From: Propionispora vibrioides
GTDB lineage: Bacteria; Bacillota; Negativicutes; Propionisporales; Propionisporaceae
Direction of reading: 5' to 3'
Length of the DNA: 64,000 nt
NCBI RefSeq assembly: GCF_900110485.1
Contig: NZ_FODY01000009.1
Coordinates: forward strand, 59,181-123,180
Shown: positions 1,534-52,877 of the stretch, one piece after another
Position numbering within the stretch: position 1 is the stretch's first letter
Layout: each line of letters begins with the position of its first letter
Program-made: the position numbers and the translations under genes
Notes under the pieces: model-generated
What the model was told of the DNA's origin: nothing
Database searches by the model: none
What the model saw: only the letters and a program-made list of their open reading frames with translations

Positions 1534-1635
1534 AATTATTGACTTGGATAAAAATTCCTGATAAATTTAATAATAGAAATGATGATAAAAATAGTAATAA
1601 TTAAATTAATCATAATAAGAGTAGGAGGAGTTATT

Positions 1636-1995
1636 TTGTCTGAGCGGACTAATGATTACTTAAGTTATATGAGACTTGTCCTGGGGTTATACATCCTGAA
1701 AATTCTTCGCCAGGGACCGGCCCACGGTAATAAAATAGCTGAAGAAATAAAACGGCGCACGAAAAATTATTATTCCCCAAATACCAACCTGCTTTATCCT
1801 TTACTAAGGATAATGGAGGAAAAGGACTATATAGTCGGGGTGTGGGATAACCCCGTTACTCGTGGCAGACGTATTTATACAATTACCCAAGTGGGTAGTG
1901 CTTACCTCCCGGAGCTTGAGGTGAAGCTGAAAGAGCGGCTTAAGGAGGCGGAAGCAAGAATAGAAATCTTAAAGTCAGATCTATTGGAGAGTTAG
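1636..1995 (+). CDS. PadR-family transcriptional regulator
   Basis: A 119-residue winged-helix regulator. The TTG start is chosen because AGGAGGAG lies five bases upstream; the frame is open for 19 more codons, but these are low-complexity and lack a site. The pattern LYILKILRQGPAHGNKIAEEI, then NLLYPLLRIMEEKDYI and RGRRIYTIT, is the PadR helix-turn-helix and wing. A charged C-terminal helix (residues 90-119) is the dimerisation arm. PadR proteins usually repress an adjacent efflux gene and release DNA on binding aromatic or drug ligands. An MFS exporter follows 123 bp downstream, so it is the likely target. Confidence 0.9.
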   Translation: MSERTNDYLSYMRLVLGLYILKILRQGPAHGNKIAEEIKRRTKNYYSPNTNLLYPLLRIMEEKDYIVGVWDNPVTRGRRIYTITQVGSAYLPELEVKLKERLKEAEARIEILKSDLLES

Positions 1996-2118
1996 TTTTT
2001 TGGTATAAGTACATTGGTCAAACTAAAGCAAAAAGTGAGGAAAACTCCGGGGAAAATGCCAAGTCAAAGTAAATGACTTTTCCCACTATTAGTTTGTTAC
2101 CTAGTAAAGAGGGTTATT

Positions 2119-3675
2119 ATGGTTAAGAAATATTTCATTTTAGTTACCGTATGCCTTGGAACGGTACTTAGCGCTTATGTCAGCAGTTGTGTCAATATTG
2201 CTCTTCCCAATATTATGGCGGCGCTGAACTTTAATATGGACTCCATTGTCTGGGTGTCACTGGGGTATATGCTACCCTATGGTTCTACTCTTCCTATAAC
2301 CGGCAAATTGGGGGATCAGCTTGGCGCAAAGCCCCTCTATATAACGGGTCTAATCGTGTTTACTGTGGCTTCCATGCTGTGTGGCATAGCCGCCAGTTCC
2401 ACTACTATGGTATTCTTTCGTATCCTCCAGGGGATAGGAGGCGGCTTAATATTACCCAATGCGATGACTATTGTTGCGCAAACCTTTGAGGGCAATGAAC
2501 GGGGACAGGCGCTTGGCATATGGAGCGCCATAGCTGCCGCCGGCAGTGCGATGGGGCCGATACTCGGCGGCTATTTAATTGAACATTTTGACTGGCGCAC
2601 GATTTTCTTTTCGGTTGCCCCGGTTTGTATCATAAGCATTGTTTTGGCCATTGTGGTAATACCTGTGTCGAAGCGCAATCCGTCGGCGAAGATCGATTAT
2701 CCCGGCGCTGCGCTCCTCATAGTCAGTGTCAGTTGCCTGCTTATCGCTCTCAATCAGGGACAAAAGGAAGGTTGGGATTCTCTTTATATTCTTTCCTTGT
2801 TTTACGCTGCGTTTGCGGCGTTTACGCTGTTTTTAGCCGTAGAGAAATGGGTAGAGCATCCAATGGTTGAATATCATTTGTTTCGAAGTATGGATTTTTC
2901 AGTAGCTAATGCCATTGGATTCGTATCTTTCCTAGTTTATTATGGCGGCAATTATTTACTCCCCTTTTTCCTCAAGTCGATTCTGGACTATAATTCCGCA
3001 ACAGCAGGAATGGCCATGCTGCCTTTGACGGCCTGCATGGTGGTGGCCTCGCCGATCGGTGGACGATTGGCTGACCGTCTCGGTTCGCGGCTGCCGGCAT
3101 TTGCAGGTATCATGATGATTGCCGGTTCTTTATACTGGTTCGAGACGATCAATACCGATTATTCGCTTCATAATTTTGCCGTCAGATTGGCTTTGCTGGG
3201 CGTAGGGCTTGGATTTACTATGTCGCCGCTCACCAACTGTGCCATTTCTTCACTGCCGAAGGATAAAGTCGGCGTTGGTTCGGGTATTTTTAATTTCGGG
3301 AAAAATCTTGGCGGTAGCATTGGCGTGGTATTTGCGGAGACATTGTTAACGCGCCGTGAAATCTATCATACGGCAGGACTAAAAGAATATCTGAATCCGT
3401 CGACCCATGCTCCGCAGGAAATATTTAACATGATACGCACCTTATGGGGAAATCAGGGGATGGACAGTTCGGCGCTGGCTGTAGCAACACATGGCTGGAT
3501 GACGGGGCAAGGGTTATTACCACAGCAGTACGCTATGCTCAAAGCTTTCCTGGGAGCGATGATATCACGACAAGCTTCTGTCTTATCCTTTCAAGATGTT
3601 TTTCACACTCTTGCGGTGATTTGCTTTTTGGGAGGGCTGTTAGCGCTATTTATTAGTCCCAATAGCAAAAACTAG
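2119..3675 (+). CDS. DHA2-family MFS multidrug exporter (14 TM)
   Basis: A 518-residue membrane protein of EmrB/QacA size. The N-terminus reads SSCVNIALPNIMAALN, the usual DHA2 start, followed by GKLGDQLGAKPLY (the motif-A loop between TM2 and TM3) and RILQGIGGGLILP (TM4). GPILGGYLIEHFDWR is motif C, the mark of proton-driven drug antiporters. A long hydrophilic stretch before the last helix (about residues 415-465) is typical. It probably exports lipophilic compounds under control of the PadR protein just upstream. Substrate cannot be read from sequence. Confidence 0.9.
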   Translation: MVKKYFILVTVCLGTVLSAYVSSCVNIALPNIMAALNFNMDSIVWVSLGYMLPYGSTLPITGKLGDQLGAKPLYITGLIVFTVASMLCGIAASSTTMVFFRILQGIGGGLILPNAMTIVAQTFEGNERGQALGIWSAIAAAGSAMGPILGGYLIEHFDWRTIFFSVAPVCIISIVLAIVVIPVSKRNPSAKIDYPGAALLIVSVSCLLIALNQGQKEGWDSLYILSLFYAAFAAFTLFLAVEKWVEHPMVEYHLFRSMDFSVANAIGFVSFLVYYGGNYLLPFFLKSILDYNSATAGMAMLPLTACMVVASPIGGRLADRLGSRLPAFAGIMMIAGSLYWFETINTDYSLHNFAVRLALLGVGLGFTMSPLTNCAISSLPKDKVGVGSGIFNFGKNLGGSIGVVFAETLLTRREIYHTAGLKEYLNPSTHAPQEIFNMIRTLWGNQGMDSSALAVATHGWMTGQGLLPQQYAMLKAFLGAMISRQASVLSFQDVFHTLAVICFLGGLLALFISPNSKN

Positions 3676-3681
3676 CGAAAC

Positions 3682-3718
3682 AGAAGCAGAAGAACCATGG
3701 CGGGTTGCTGCTTCTTTT
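3682..3718 (+). terminator. Rho-independent terminator after the MFS gene
   Basis: AGAAGCAG pairs with CTGCTTCT with an inner AACC/GGTT stem, followed by TTTT. It ends the PadR-MFS transcript. Confidence 0.75.
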
Positions 3719-3804
3719 ATTGCAAGGGGAATGTATAGAATTGTACCTTGACGGTGAGAGTAAGGTTTGTTACTTTGATAGTAGAAAGCTTTGGGAGGCG
3801 TCTT

Positions 3805-3867
3805 ATGGTACTAAAGGATCGATTACAAAGAAACGCCGGCTGGTGTGCACGATGCGTTATTGTCTAA
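3805..3867 (+). CDS. Possible 20-codon upstream ORF overlapping the exporter start
   Basis: A short frame (MVLKDRLQRN...) has the best ribosome-binding site in the region, GGGAGG six bases before its ATG. It ends in TAA 15 bases after the probable start of the next gene, which lacks its own site. This arrangement would allow translational coupling. No homologue is recognised, and it could be chance. Confidence 0.3.
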   Translation: MVLKDRLQRNAGWCARCVIV

Positions 3868-4940
3868 CCCAACTGGCGAGGCTGGGTCTAACGCTGCAGG
3901 TACTTAAAACAGCTTTTGCGGCAGGGTTGGCCTGGCTGGTTGCCTTGCTGATTCCGGGCAGTTCTTATCCGGTTTTTGCGCCGCTGGCAGCTATTTTAAC
4001 CATGCAGGTGACAATCGCCGATTCCATAGAAAAAGGAGTATACCGGGTTTTGGGCGTTATTGTGGGAGTCACGGTCGGCGGGGCGATTGGTTCTTACTTT
4101 GCCGTTAATACAGTAACTATTTTCTTTGCGATTTTACTGGGAATATCGGCTTCGACTGCTTTTCGTTTAAATCCGCAAATCACTTCCCAGGTAGGGGTCA
4201 GCACCTTGCTGGTACTGGTTTACGGTCAGACGAGCGGCTATATGCTGGGCCGGATTTGGGAAACAATGATTGGCTCTCTTGTGGCCGTATTACTGAATAT
4301 AGCGATTAGCCCGCCGCAGGCCAGCGTTGTCGCCCGTCAGGCCGTGGTTGTCTCCATCCGGCAACTGATGCTGGTGCTGGAGCATATGCTTGATGCCCCG
4401 ACAGATACAGAAGTTAGCTTGCTTGAGGCAAGACAGATGGTAACGCGGATTGAGAAAGAGCATATGCAGATTATCCAGACAGCGCATGGTTTTCGTTACA
4501 CTCCTTTTCAACGACGGGAAAGAAAGGCTATGTTTGAACTGGTTTTATTGATAAACCGGGTAGAACATATCAGTATTCAGATTCGCGGGATAGCCCGCAG
4601 CTTAGTAGATCTACATTCTTTGCCAGGCCAGACGTACGACTTTTCCAGCGTATTGAAGGATGTACGCCTGTGTCTTTTGATCTTTGCCCGTGCGGTTGCG
4701 GCCAATGATGCTGAGGCGAAAGAAGCGGCAGTTATGGCGGTAAGGGAGATGCGGGCTAATTTCTCACAATACTATTATGCTTTGCAGCATGAGGCGGACA
4801 CGGCGCCGGAAGTGGGTGCCATTTTTTCGGATCTGGGCCGCATTCTTGATGAAATTGAGGATAAGTTCCCTGCCTTAAATGCGCAAGCTGCCGGGAGCGG
4901 CCGGCTCTTTCCCGGCATTGACATTTCCGCCAATGAGTAA
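3852..4940 (+). CDS. Aromatic-acid-exporter-like membrane protein (ArAE/FUSC type)
   Basis: About 362 residues from the ATG chosen here. The frame is open upstream to 3705, but that part is hydrophilic and lacks family features. Residues 10-160 hold about six hydrophobic segments, beginning LQVLKTAFAAGLAWLVALLIP and including AAILTMQVTIADSIEKGVYRVLG, the signature of Gram-positive YgaH/DUF939-type proteins. The C-terminal 190 residues are cytosolic and helical. Relatives are thought to export aromatic acids or other anions. The start codon is uncertain: no Shine-Dalgarno sequence precedes it, and a short ORF overlaps it. Confidence 0.75.
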   Translation: MRYCLTQLARLGLTLQVLKTAFAAGLAWLVALLIPGSSYPVFAPLAAILTMQVTIADSIEKGVYRVLGVIVGVTVGGAIGSYFAVNTVTIFFAILLGISASTAFRLNPQITSQVGVSTLLVLVYGQTSGYMLGRIWETMIGSLVAVLLNIAISPPQASVVARQAVVVSIRQLMLVLEHMLDAPTDTEVSLLEARQMVTRIEKEHMQIIQTAHGFRYTPFQRRERKAMFELVLLINRVEHISIQIRGIARSLVDLHSLPGQTYDFSSVLKDVRLCLLIFARAVAANDAEAKEAAVMAVREMRANFSQYYYALQHEADTAPEVGAIFSDLGRILDEIEDKFPALNAQAAGSGRLFPGIDISANE

Positions 4941-5015: not shown

Positions 5016-5044
5016 TTGAATTTGAGGCAAGCATATGCTATATT
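5016..5044 (+). promoter_or_regulatory. Promoter of the ABC-F leader transcript
   Basis: TTGAAT, 17 bases, then TATATT. The start of transcription would fall near 5051, just ahead of the leader peptide and attenuator. Confidence 0.65.
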
Positions 5045-5061
5045 GATGGTAATAAAACGAT

Positions 5062-5273
5062 GGGAGTTGAAAAGATGATTATTCTTTCTTGCTAATTTTT
5101 AAAGCATAATCAAATCATGGGCGAAAAGGCCTCTTGTTTTGTTGTGCTTAGGCAAGAAAGATACAATTCTTTTCAACTCAGTCCTATATCTTTGTCATGC
5201 CCGGTGCCGGGCCTGGCTTTGCTGTGTGGTATGAGCTGCAGGAATGTTCTTTCTTGCAGCTCATACTTTTTTT
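5062..5273 (+). promoter_or_regulatory. Ribosome-mediated transcription attenuator upstream of the ABC-F gene
   Basis: The leader RNA can form a long hairpin. GAGTTGAAAAG (5064-5074) pairs perfectly with 5169-5179, and TCTTTCTTGC (5083-5092) pairs with 5152-5161. A GC-rich hairpin follows at 5199-5212. The terminator has stem GTATGAGCTGCA (5229-5240) with 5255-5266, then seven Ts. TTCTTTCTTGC occurs twice, at 5082-5092 inside the leader ORF and at 5247-5257 in the terminator loop and 3' arm. A ribosome stalled on the leader ORF would therefore free 5152-5161 to pair with the second copy and weaken the terminator. This is the logic known for other antibiotic-resistance ABC-F genes such as vmlR and vga(A). 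The pairings are read from sequence; the switching is inferred. Confidence 0.8.
5075..5095 (+). CDS. Leader peptide of the ABC-F attenuator (6 aa)
   Basis: ATG-ATT-ATT-CTT-TCT-TGC-TAA encodes MIILSC. GGGAG lies eight bases upstream. The codons lie inside the 5' arm of the attenuator hairpin, where stalling by a peptidyl-transferase-centre antibiotic would expose the antiterminating strand. Confidence 0.65.
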   Translation: MIILSC

Positions 5274-5291
5274 GCAGGAGGATATAAGCTG

Positions 5292-6770
5292 ATGTCATTA
5301 ATTAATATTTCAAATCTAACTTTTGCTTATGAGGGAAGTTATGATCCTATTTTTGAAAATGTGAGCTTTCAGATGGACACGGACTGGAAGTTGGGTTTCA
5401 TCGGCCGGAATGGCAGGGGAAAGACTACTTTTCTTAATCTGCTGCTGGGTCGCTACGAATATAGCGGGACCATTGCGGGCAGCGTGGACTTTGAGTATTT
5501 TCCCTTTGTGGTAACCCGTCCGGAAGAACTGGCGAGAGATGTGCTGGAGAGCATCTGCCCCGGCTGTCCGGATTGGCAAGTACTGCGGGAGCTTTCGCTG
5601 CTCCAGGTGGACGGCGAAGTGCTGTACCGCCCCTTTGCCACATTATCGCAGGGCGAGCAGACCAAACTGTTATTGGCAGCTTTGTTTTTGAAGGAAAATA
5701 GTTTTCTTCTGATTGACGAGCCGACCAATCATCTTGACCGGGAGGCGCGGGCCAGCGTCAGCCAATATCTTAATACGAAAAAGGGCTTTATTCTGGTGTC
5801 CCATGACCGTGCTTTTCTCGATAGTTGTATTGATCATGTGCTTTCCATCAATAAGACTAACATCGACATTCAGAAGGGTAATTTCTCGACCTGGTGGGAA
5901 AATAAGAGGCGGCAGGACCAGTTTGAACTTGCCGAGAATGAAAAACTGAAAAAGGACATTGCCCGCCTGTCCTCTGCCGCCAGGCGGACGGCTAACTGGT
6001 CGGACCAAGTGGAACAAACCAAGCTGGGCAGCAAGAACTCCGGCTTGCGGCCCGACCGGGGCTATATTGGCCATAAGTCGGCCAAGATGATGAAGCGGGC
6101 GAAGAGCATCGAGGCAAGGCAGCAAGCGGCTATTGAGGAAAAAGCCGGTCTGCTGAAAAATATCGAAAACGCCGGACGGCTGCAAATGACGCCGCTCGAC
6201 TTTTATACCCAGCGGCTGGTGGAGGTGGGAAAACTCGATATCTTCTACGGAAACAGGGCCGTTTGCCGGCAGGCGGATTTTACGATTGAACAGGGTGACC
6301 GCATTGCGCTTAGCGGCAAAAACGGTTCGGGTAAATCCAGTCTGATCAAGTTGATTTGCGGCGAAGCCATTGCCTATACAGGTACGTTCCGGAAAGCCAG
6401 CCGGCTCGTTATATCCTATGTGTCGCAGGATACTTCAGGCCTTACGGGCAGTTTGCGCGATTATATCCGCGGCTATGGTATTGACGAAAGCATTTTTAAG
6501 GCGACCTTGAGAAAACTCGATTTTTCGCGGGTGCAGTTTGAAAAAGATATGGCCGATTTCAGCGGTGGCCAGAAGAAAAAGGTGCTGCTGGCCAGGAGCC
6601 TTTGTGAGAAAGCTCATTTGTATGTCTGGGACGAACCGCTTAATTTTATTGATGTAATTTCCCGGCTGCAGCTTGAAGAAGTGCTGCTGGAGTTTTCGCC
6701 GACTATTTTGTTTGTTGAGCATGACAGCCAGTTTTGCAAGAATATAGCCACCAAGGTAGTAATGCTTTAG
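5292..6770 (+). CDS. Lsa-type ABC-F ribosomal protection protein
   Basis: A 492-residue cytosolic protein with two ABC ATPase domains and no membrane segments. The first Walker A is GRNGRGKTT (residues 38-46), with LSQGEQ at 118-123 and LLIDEPTNHLD with the catalytic Glu near 143. The interdomain arm (about 205-300) reaches the peptidyl-transferase centre. The second Walker A is GKNGSGKSS (342-350), with FSGGQ (423-427) and LYVWDEP. The opening MSLINISNLTFAYEGSYD is characteristic of the Lsa subgroup, which protects ribosomes against lincosamides, streptogramin A and pleuromutilins. The ATG follows AGGAGG by ten bases; the longer open frame starts inside the terminator. Regulation is by the leader attenuator. 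The drug spectrum is inferred from family. Confidence 0.9.
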   Translation: MSLINISNLTFAYEGSYDPIFENVSFQMDTDWKLGFIGRNGRGKTTFLNLLLGRYEYSGTIAGSVDFEYFPFVVTRPEELARDVLESICPGCPDWQVLRELSLLQVDGEVLYRPFATLSQGEQTKLLLAALFLKENSFLLIDEPTNHLDREARASVSQYLNTKKGFILVSHDRAFLDSCIDHVLSINKTNIDIQKGNFSTWWENKRRQDQFELAENEKLKKDIARLSSAARRTANWSDQVEQTKLGSKNSGLRPDRGYIGHKSAKMMKRAKSIEARQQAAIEEKAGLLKNIENAGRLQMTPLDFYTQRLVEVGKLDIFYGNRAVCRQADFTIEQGDRIALSGKNGSGKSSLIKLICGEAIAYTGTFRKASRLVISYVSQDTSGLTGSLRDYIRGYGIDESIFKATLRKLDFSRVQFEKDMADFSGGQKKKVLLARSLCEKAHLYVWDEPLNFIDVISRLQLEEVLLEFSPTILFVEHDSQFCKNIATKVVML

Positions 6771-52749: not shown

Positions 52750-52845
52750 CACATATTCTTCGGGGAGCTTGTGTAGCAGGCTGAGAGGAAGTAATCAAAC
52801 TTTGACCCATATACCTGATTTGGATAATGCCAACGTAGGAATGTG
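52750..52845 (+). ncRNA. TPP riboswitch (first of two)
   Basis: Canonical THI element: CGGGGAGC, GGCTGAGAGGAA, TTTGACCC, ACCTGATTTGG and ATAATGCCAACGTAGG appear in order, closed by a CACAT/ATGTG P1 stem. It is followed by a terminator, so thiamine diphosphate should switch off thiW-thiM transcription. Confidence 0.93.
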
Positions 52846-52877
52846 AATTGTGTTGCTATGATGTATAGGTAGAGCAG

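Follow-up and report, generated by a model that had tools for sequence, protein, structure and literature searches.

A candidate ribosome-sensing transcription attenuator in the leader of an Lsa-type ABC-F gene of Propionispora vibrioides

The RNA leader preceding an Lsa-type ABC-F gene in a 64,000-nucleotide stretch of the Propionispora vibrioides genome (contig NZ_FODY01000009.1, positions 59,181 to 123,180, forward strand; hereafter the window, with positions counted from its first letter) is very probably a ribosome-sensing transcription attenuator. Four lines of evidence support this reading, namely, the sequence of the leader, its conservation, the covariation of both of its alternative states, and model folding. 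The leader of the window is one member of a widespread family and not a single-site case; its comparative support is unusually strong, and the family includes a clinically relevant branch. With less assurance, we favor the view that the family constitutes a single attenuator RNA class, ancient and previously undescribed, which accompanies ABC-F genes of the Lsa clade in two or more phyla (Bacillota and Synergistota among them) and onto plasmids with lsa(E), and which reads start-codon-arrested ribosomes without requiring a leader peptide, even at upstream open reading frames (uORFs) reduced to AUG-stop.

The lsa gene and its neighborhood

The gene under the control of the leader (5292 to 6770, plus strand, as are all features described below) codes for a predicted ribosomal protection protein of 492 aa. 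The initial annotation had assigned it to the Lsa-type ABC-F proteins, and this identification holds. On the ribosomal-protection ABC-F model NF000355 it scores 473.1 bits, which passes the cut-off of 380, and the closest PDB structure to its product is that of Enterococcus faecalis LsaA (7nhk). On the Lsa model NF000167 it scores 747.4 bits over the full 491 positions and misses the cut-off of 750 by 2.6; because this score falls just under the cut-off, we refer to the gene as Lsa-type and not as Lsa sensu NCBI. It has no full-length relatives in its own genome besides itself. Directly upstream of the lsa unit (1579 to 4940) are genes for a PadR-type regulator, an EmrB-type DHA2 efflux pump, and a YccS/FUSC-like membrane protein, which together with the lsa unit possibly form a drug-response neighborhood. 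Elsewhere in the window, a TPP riboswitch (RF00059) is found at 52751 to 52859 (66.9 bits).

Anatomy of the leader

The transcript of the leader likely starts just downstream of a promoter-like site at 5016 to 5044 (TTGAAT-17-TATATT, with a TG ahead of the second hexamer), whose 9/12 match is, taken alone, no better than chance; such sites precede 45 of the 79 related leaders examined, versus 3.3 in shuffled sequence. The first conserved element is the Shine-Dalgarno (SD) sequence GGGAG (5062 to 5066) of the uORF, which is recovered in the alignments and lies partly within the 5′ arm of the basal helix P1 (5064 to 5075). This arm pairs with 5168 to 5179 in the fold, with 90% of the cells paired in the MAFFT alignment, and the first two bases of its partner (5168 and 5169) are also used by an extension of the antiterminator. 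The uORF itself, ATGATTATTCTTTCTTGCTAA (5075 to 5095), comprises 18 coding bases and a stop codon, specifies MIILSC, and is predicted to be the ribosome sensor; its placement in the 5′ arm of a long hairpin, as well as its coordinates and sequence, agrees with the initial annotation.

The end of the uORF overlaps the first copy of an 11-base switch sequence (X; 5082 to 5092), which furnishes the anti-antiterminator strand of helix P2 (5083 to 5093 with 5151 to 5161), as indicated by both the fold and the pair counts. Above P2 stands P3 (5102 to 5149), an apical hairpin that varies across the alignments, and on its 3′ side lies the switch strand X* (5151 to 5169), which by folding and pair counts pairs with X in the OFF state and with 5241 to 5257 in the ON state. 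P1, P2, and the apical P3 are followed in the OFF fold by a three-way junction of P4, P5, and P6. The 5′ arm of P4 (5185 to 5193) acts as a candidate anti-SD element that pairs with 5278 to 5286 over the SD sequence of the lsa gene (5278 to 5283), with 79% of the cells paired in the MAFFT alignment, a moderate level of support. P5 is a hairpin within the junction (5194 to 5217; 5194 to 5203 with 5208 to 5217) recovered by the fold and the alignments, and P6 (5219 to 5277; 5219 to 5222 with 5274 to 5277, 83% of the cells paired in the MAFFT alignment) closes the base of the terminator. The intrinsic terminator (5228 to 5274), identified by the fold, a terminator scan, and covariation, consists of a 17-bp stem (5228 to 5244 with 5251 to 5267) and a U-run ending at 5274, about 18 bases ahead of the lsa ATG at 5292, much as first noticed; the scan finds one terminator here versus 0.2 in shuffles. 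The second copy of the switch sequence (X′; 5247 to 5257) occupies its loop and 3′ arm and forms part of the 3′ strand of the antiterminator (5241 to 5257), as the sequence and the pair counts indicate. The leader as a whole folds at −101.3 kcal/mol; the mean of 200 shuffles is −59.5 (z, −9.5), and none is as low.

In the 64 kb of the window, the two copies of TTCTTTCTTGC, at 5082 and 5247, are the only ones, and the complementary GCAAGAAAGA has a single occurrence, at 5152. A repeated 10-mer appears in 264 of 5,000 dinucleotide shuffles of the leader, and a repeat with an intervening reverse complement appears in none of the 5,000. The earlier proposal that 5152 to 5161 can pair with either copy stands with respect to both pairings and needs revision in its extent, as the antiterminator is longer than the 10 to 11 bases originally recognized, engaging 5152 to 5169 with 5241 to 5257 in a duplex of −19.3 kcal/mol. 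From the coordinates, the antiterminator and terminator states should be mutually exclusive, since the coexistence of the outer terminator pairs (5229 to 5238 with 5258 to 5266) with the antiterminator would be a sterically implausible pseudoknot, in which linkers of 0 and 2 bases would have to bridge a helix of about 16 bp.

A leader family specific to lsa genes

For comparison, the leaders of 80 lsa orthologues were taken from public genomes. Alignment reveals parts in common between the leaders of Negativicutes, Clostridia, Desulforamulus, Paenibacillus, Brevibacillus, Cohnella, and Synergistota. Twenty-five of the leaders were used to build a covariance model (R1), which matches upstream of about 60 of the 80 orthologues, more than 25 of these lying outside the training set, and recovers held-out leaders beyond the training lineages with E-values down to 1e-21. 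In a sample of 399 genomes from across the phylum, 37 carry an lsa-family gene and 27 the R1 RNA. The R1-positive genomes comprise 24 with the RNA at an intact lsa gene, two with it at a truncated lsa remnant, and one with a weak match; seen from the side of the gene, the leader is found at lsa in 24 of the 37 lsa-bearing genomes. On these counts, the element is lsa specific, and the genome to which the window belongs has a single copy. The lack of conservation in orthologues had been named at the outset as a result that would count against the switch. We instead found that both pairings and the start of the uORF are retained and show covariation in lineages ranging from Negativicutes to Clostridia, Paenibacillaceae, and Synergistota.

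One match of 35.8 bits without an lsa gene (L120) was treated as probably due to chance, and weak R1 matches on the minus strand are mirror images of symmetrical hairpins. Two leaders that seemed to precede non-lsa genes proved to be followed by truncated lsa remnants (L100:1501-1820 and L102:1501-1971); here the attenuator is intact and lsa breaks off after roughly 15 to 35 codons, and these are decayed resistance loci that retain the switch. Propionispora sp. 2/2-37 has two lsa genes (L010/L013 and L011/L018), each with its own leader (227 and 212 bits).

The general layout of the leader is in common with attenuators that sense amino acids or tRNAs, such as T-boxes and leaders with codon clusters, and with ligand riboswitches. 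Such a sensor is nevertheless a very remote prospect here: the leader has no match to a T-box, riboswitch, or known sRNA in Rfam; it lacks a regulatory codon cluster, and uORFs of one to two codons exist in the family; and the variability of the apical part leaves no conserved aptamer, while the association of the leader is with lsa genes only. Searches of Rfam 15 with the leader, four further members, and that of lsa(E) returned no family at the gathering score.

Covariation of the two alternative states

Both alternative pairings covary across the 80 leaders, in line with the check that had been proposed for them. The MAFFT alignment was made without reference to structure; in it, 87.6% of the cells of the OFF structure are paired, and 25 of its 65 pairs show changes on both sides, a result reached by none of 500 shuffles; when the partners are slid, pairing falls to 42 to 53%. 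The corresponding values for the 80-leader alignment, itself biased towards the OFF structure, are 86.9% paired and 56 of 65 pairs with changes on both sides (0 of 500 shuffles; below 50% on sliding). The terminator helix has 92.4% of its cells paired across the 80 leaders and double changes in 12 of 14 pairs. The antiterminator, which is absent from the structure of the covariance model, is 86.4% paired, with 53 double-change cells versus 25 in shuffled data (0 of 500), and the P2 pair counts follow the same trend. Partner swaps among leaders reduce X*:X′ and X:X* pairing alike. The terminator does not account for the part of the antiterminator that reaches into its loop (e.g., GCAAGAAAGTTAC with GTAACTTTCTTGC and GCAAGAAAGATGC with GCATCTTTCTTGC). 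At one position, an A-to-G change in X* is accompanied by a U-to-C change in X′ in 13 leaders. Mapped on the tree of the Lsa proteins, X* underwent at least 12 changes and X′ at least 10; the tree test of independent cochanges at one site gave three same, none opposite, and two unchanged, which is the direction expected for the switch, and is underpowered.

The preceding observations bear on the simplest alternative, a constitutive terminator next to an unrelated hairpin with no regulatory switching. We hold it to be most improbable, given that the antiterminator covaries despite having no role in either hairpin of the OFF state and that a start codon and an SD sequence are conserved within the hairpin.

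A second alternative is that the leader is a translational attenuator only, in which sequestration of the SD sequence is in control and any termination at the hairpin is weak or accidental. P4 and P6 do lie over the lsa SD sequence and are moderately conserved (the observed values are reached by 15 to 75 of 500 shuffles), and in cplR translational attenuation alone is enough for repression (PMC10201436). However, the terminator stem and its U-run are among the best-conserved helices, and the terminator is kept in three leaders (L021, L022, and L124) even though it is about 90 to 190 nt from the SD sequence of the gene. We therefore regard purely translational control as quite improbable and retain transcription attenuation as the preferred reading.

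Switching in model folds

The proposed two-state switch was reproduced by folding the nascent RNA with and without a ribosome on the start of the uORF, which flips it from the anti-antiterminator to the antiterminator. When the transcript end of the window leader is stepped forward without a ribosome, P2 is always held, and the terminator follows. With 5060 to 5090 blocked, as by a ribosome on the AUG, the antiterminator has a probability of 1.00 at the ends 5254 to 5260, and the terminator overtakes it only at end 5266, when its 3′ arm is complete. Blocks over the AUG or the first codons lead to the antiterminator, and footprints placed elsewhere do not; with the ribosome later in the uORF, the model re-forms P1 and the terminator. 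Among 79 leaders folded without a ribosome, P2 forms in 74 and the antiterminator in 2. Placing a ribosome on the start codon raises the number with the antiterminator to 57 of the 79; in the remaining 22 it stays below 50% in this simple fold. At the full-length equilibrium, the terminator (−28 kcal/mol) beats the antiterminator (−19 kcal/mol) even with the ribosome present, and hence the mechanism must be kinetic; going by these models, kinetic control would be the main unproven step of the switch. The SD core of lsa is paired in P4 in the modeled OFF state and, in the modeled ON state, retains weak pairing to the U-run.

Start-codon arrest as the likely signal

The start codon lies 6 to 11 nt before X in 76 of the 80 leaders, and exactly 9 nt in 54. 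The uORF ranges from one to nine codons (six in 43 of 80); at least 7 of the 80 are AUG-stop, 18 stop before the end of X, and the spacing from the start to X is not always in frame. Conservation is seen in the nucleotides of X, even where they are untranslated or out of frame, and not in the leader peptide. For these reasons, the original label of a leader-peptide attenuator is misleading, as what is conserved is the RNA and a start codon 6 to 11 nt upstream of X, and the peptide can be reduced to a bare AUG-stop. Pleuromutilins and lincosamides are known to arrest initiating ribosomes. Because initiation is arrested by these drugs, the peptide varies down to AUG-stop, and X and its spacing to the start are kept, the switch most likely senses start-codon arrest and not a peptide. 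The toeprint mapped in vmlR falls 16 nt 3′ of the first base of the AUG (PMC9226507). At a similar distance, an arrested ribosome would cover most of X in the leader of the window.

An alternative is that the drug arrests the ribosome through the MIILSC nascent chain and not at the start codon. Macrolides stall ribosomes in this nascent-chain-specific manner on ermCL or msrDL, and the six-codon length of 43 of the 80 uORFs, and the frequent ending in SC, might be taken in its favor. Against this, the codons for SC lie in X, and the nucleotides of X are kept irrespective of translation or frame; some uORFs are AUG-stop, others stop before X ends, and the frame between the start and X varies; and when the modeled ribosome sits at the end of the uORF, P1 and the terminator re-form. 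Peptide-specific stalling is accordingly judged unlikely, and start-codon arrest remains our reading of the signal. Since uORFs of every size between AUG-stop and nine codons occur naturally, the family lends itself to a test of start-codon arrest versus the nascent peptide.

Proposed mechanism

Taking these findings together, we infer uORF translation, drug identity, readthrough, and SD control as follows. In the absence of a drug, the uORF would be translated fast and the ribosome would depart, whereupon the nascent RNA would form P1 and P2 (X with X*) and the terminator would halt transcription about 20 nt before the gene. In the presence of a pleuromutilin, a lincosamide, or a streptogramin A, a ribosome arrested at the uORF start would place its footprint over X and the 5′ arm of P1. 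X*, left free, could then capture X′ once it is transcribed, ahead of the 3′ arm of the terminator, allowing RNA polymerase to read through. As a second layer, with moderate support, sequestration of the lsa SD sequence in the P4/P6 three-way junction would probably silence leaky transcripts.

Relation to known attenuators of ABC-F genes

The mechanism is already known, being of the vmlR/cplR kind, and it is the RNA family itself that is new to Rfam 15. That ribosome-mediated attenuation is established for other ABC-F genes, as stated in the initial annotation, is borne out by vmlR of Bacillus subtilis and by cplR, in which the attenuation mechanism was demonstrated experimentally (PMC9226507, PMC10201436). 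In the former (uORF MIN), induction by lincomycin requires initiation at the uORF, and the variants MDN and MDK equal MIN, while MRK is weaker (PMC9226507). Like the leader of the window, that of vmlR has a uORF within an anti-antiterminator, an antiterminator, and a terminator just before the ARE-ABCF gene; it also has an SD-sequestering element, for which P4 and P6 are the candidate counterpart in the window. It differs in sequence, RNA family, and ABC-F subfamily. For its part, the window leader differs from that of vmlR in the literal duplication of the end of the uORF in the terminator, in having uORFs of one to nine codons in its family, and in the span of that family across phyla. The leader of cplR from Clostridioides difficile (uORF MR[I/M]; PMC10201436) likewise has a 5′ hairpin with the uORF, a terminator hairpin, and an antiterminator, and it combines transcriptional with translational attenuation, as is proposed for the window. 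Unlike in the window, it is the terminator hairpin of cplR that covers the SD sequence; the sequence, the uORF, and the subfamily also differ. The window leader has several features of this type, namely, adjacency to an ARE-ABCF gene, a uORF with its SD sequence in an anti-antiterminator, an intrinsic terminator, and an exclusive antiterminator, the last by model folding and covariation only.

Ribosome-mediated attenuation of ABC-F genes is also on record for msrD, vgaL/lmo0919, lmrC, and tiaA/are5sc (PMC10314930, PMC8546547, PMC12421871), which belong to other subfamilies and have other leader sequences; msrD depends on a macrolide-specific leader peptide, and lmrC has an unusual arrangement of uORFs. 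A further case is lsa(A) of E. faecalis, for which a uORF (MAGN) was predicted solely from LsaA homologues of at least 80% identity (PMC10201436, Fig. 3F). It resembles the window in having a predicted uORF before an Lsa-family gene but, compared by the uORF peptide alone, lacks an X-like end. Searches of an open-access literature collection turned up no account of a leader of the lsa(E) type. The set of leaders collected here supplies a covariance model for an RNA family unlisted in Rfam.

Plasmid-borne lsa(E) and other leader types

The family extends to the mobile resistance gene lsa(E). On the Enterococcus faecium plasmid NZ_LR135183.1, a leader of 86.9 bits with the uORF MYNFSC (L124:2118-2373) sits 128 nt farther upstream of the gene than usual. 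Its DNA is found in 107 plasmid records, 106 of them at 99% identity or above and 102 from Enterococcus; among the matches listed, no annotated feature lies under it. The presence of the leader predicts that mobile lsa(E) is drug inducible and not constitutive, which bears on susceptibility testing. The lsa gene on a plasmid of Paenibacillus urinalis also has the leader; lsa(B) and the plasmid-borne lsa gene of Priestia lack an R1 leader. A chromosomal lsa locus (L107; G302, C1:977813-978056 and the gene) shares 93.3% identity over 2.2 kb with the plasmid lsa(E) region, leader included, and could lie close to the origin of lsa(E).

Two further types of leader were observed at lsa genes. One, found at lsa(B) (L126:782-1200), in L125, downstream of the terminator in L022, and possibly at L124:2374-2500, is marked by a THxxLxI-like stretch within a short ORF and by CGACTTTGTAT opposite ATACAAAGGAGG; L022 carries it in tandem, behind the first attenuator. 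The region upstream of lsa(B) matches RF02452 (ncr1575, annotated as a Bacillus sRNA) with 110.3 bits, a hint that the ncr1575 “sRNA” may be a leader of a resistance gene. The other is conserved upstream of lsa in one group of Paenibacillus (L030, L038, L040, L043, and L050) and is unrelated to R1, with GTTACCGGAACTTTATCCC followed by a terminator of the form GCGCCGAGAAGCAC.
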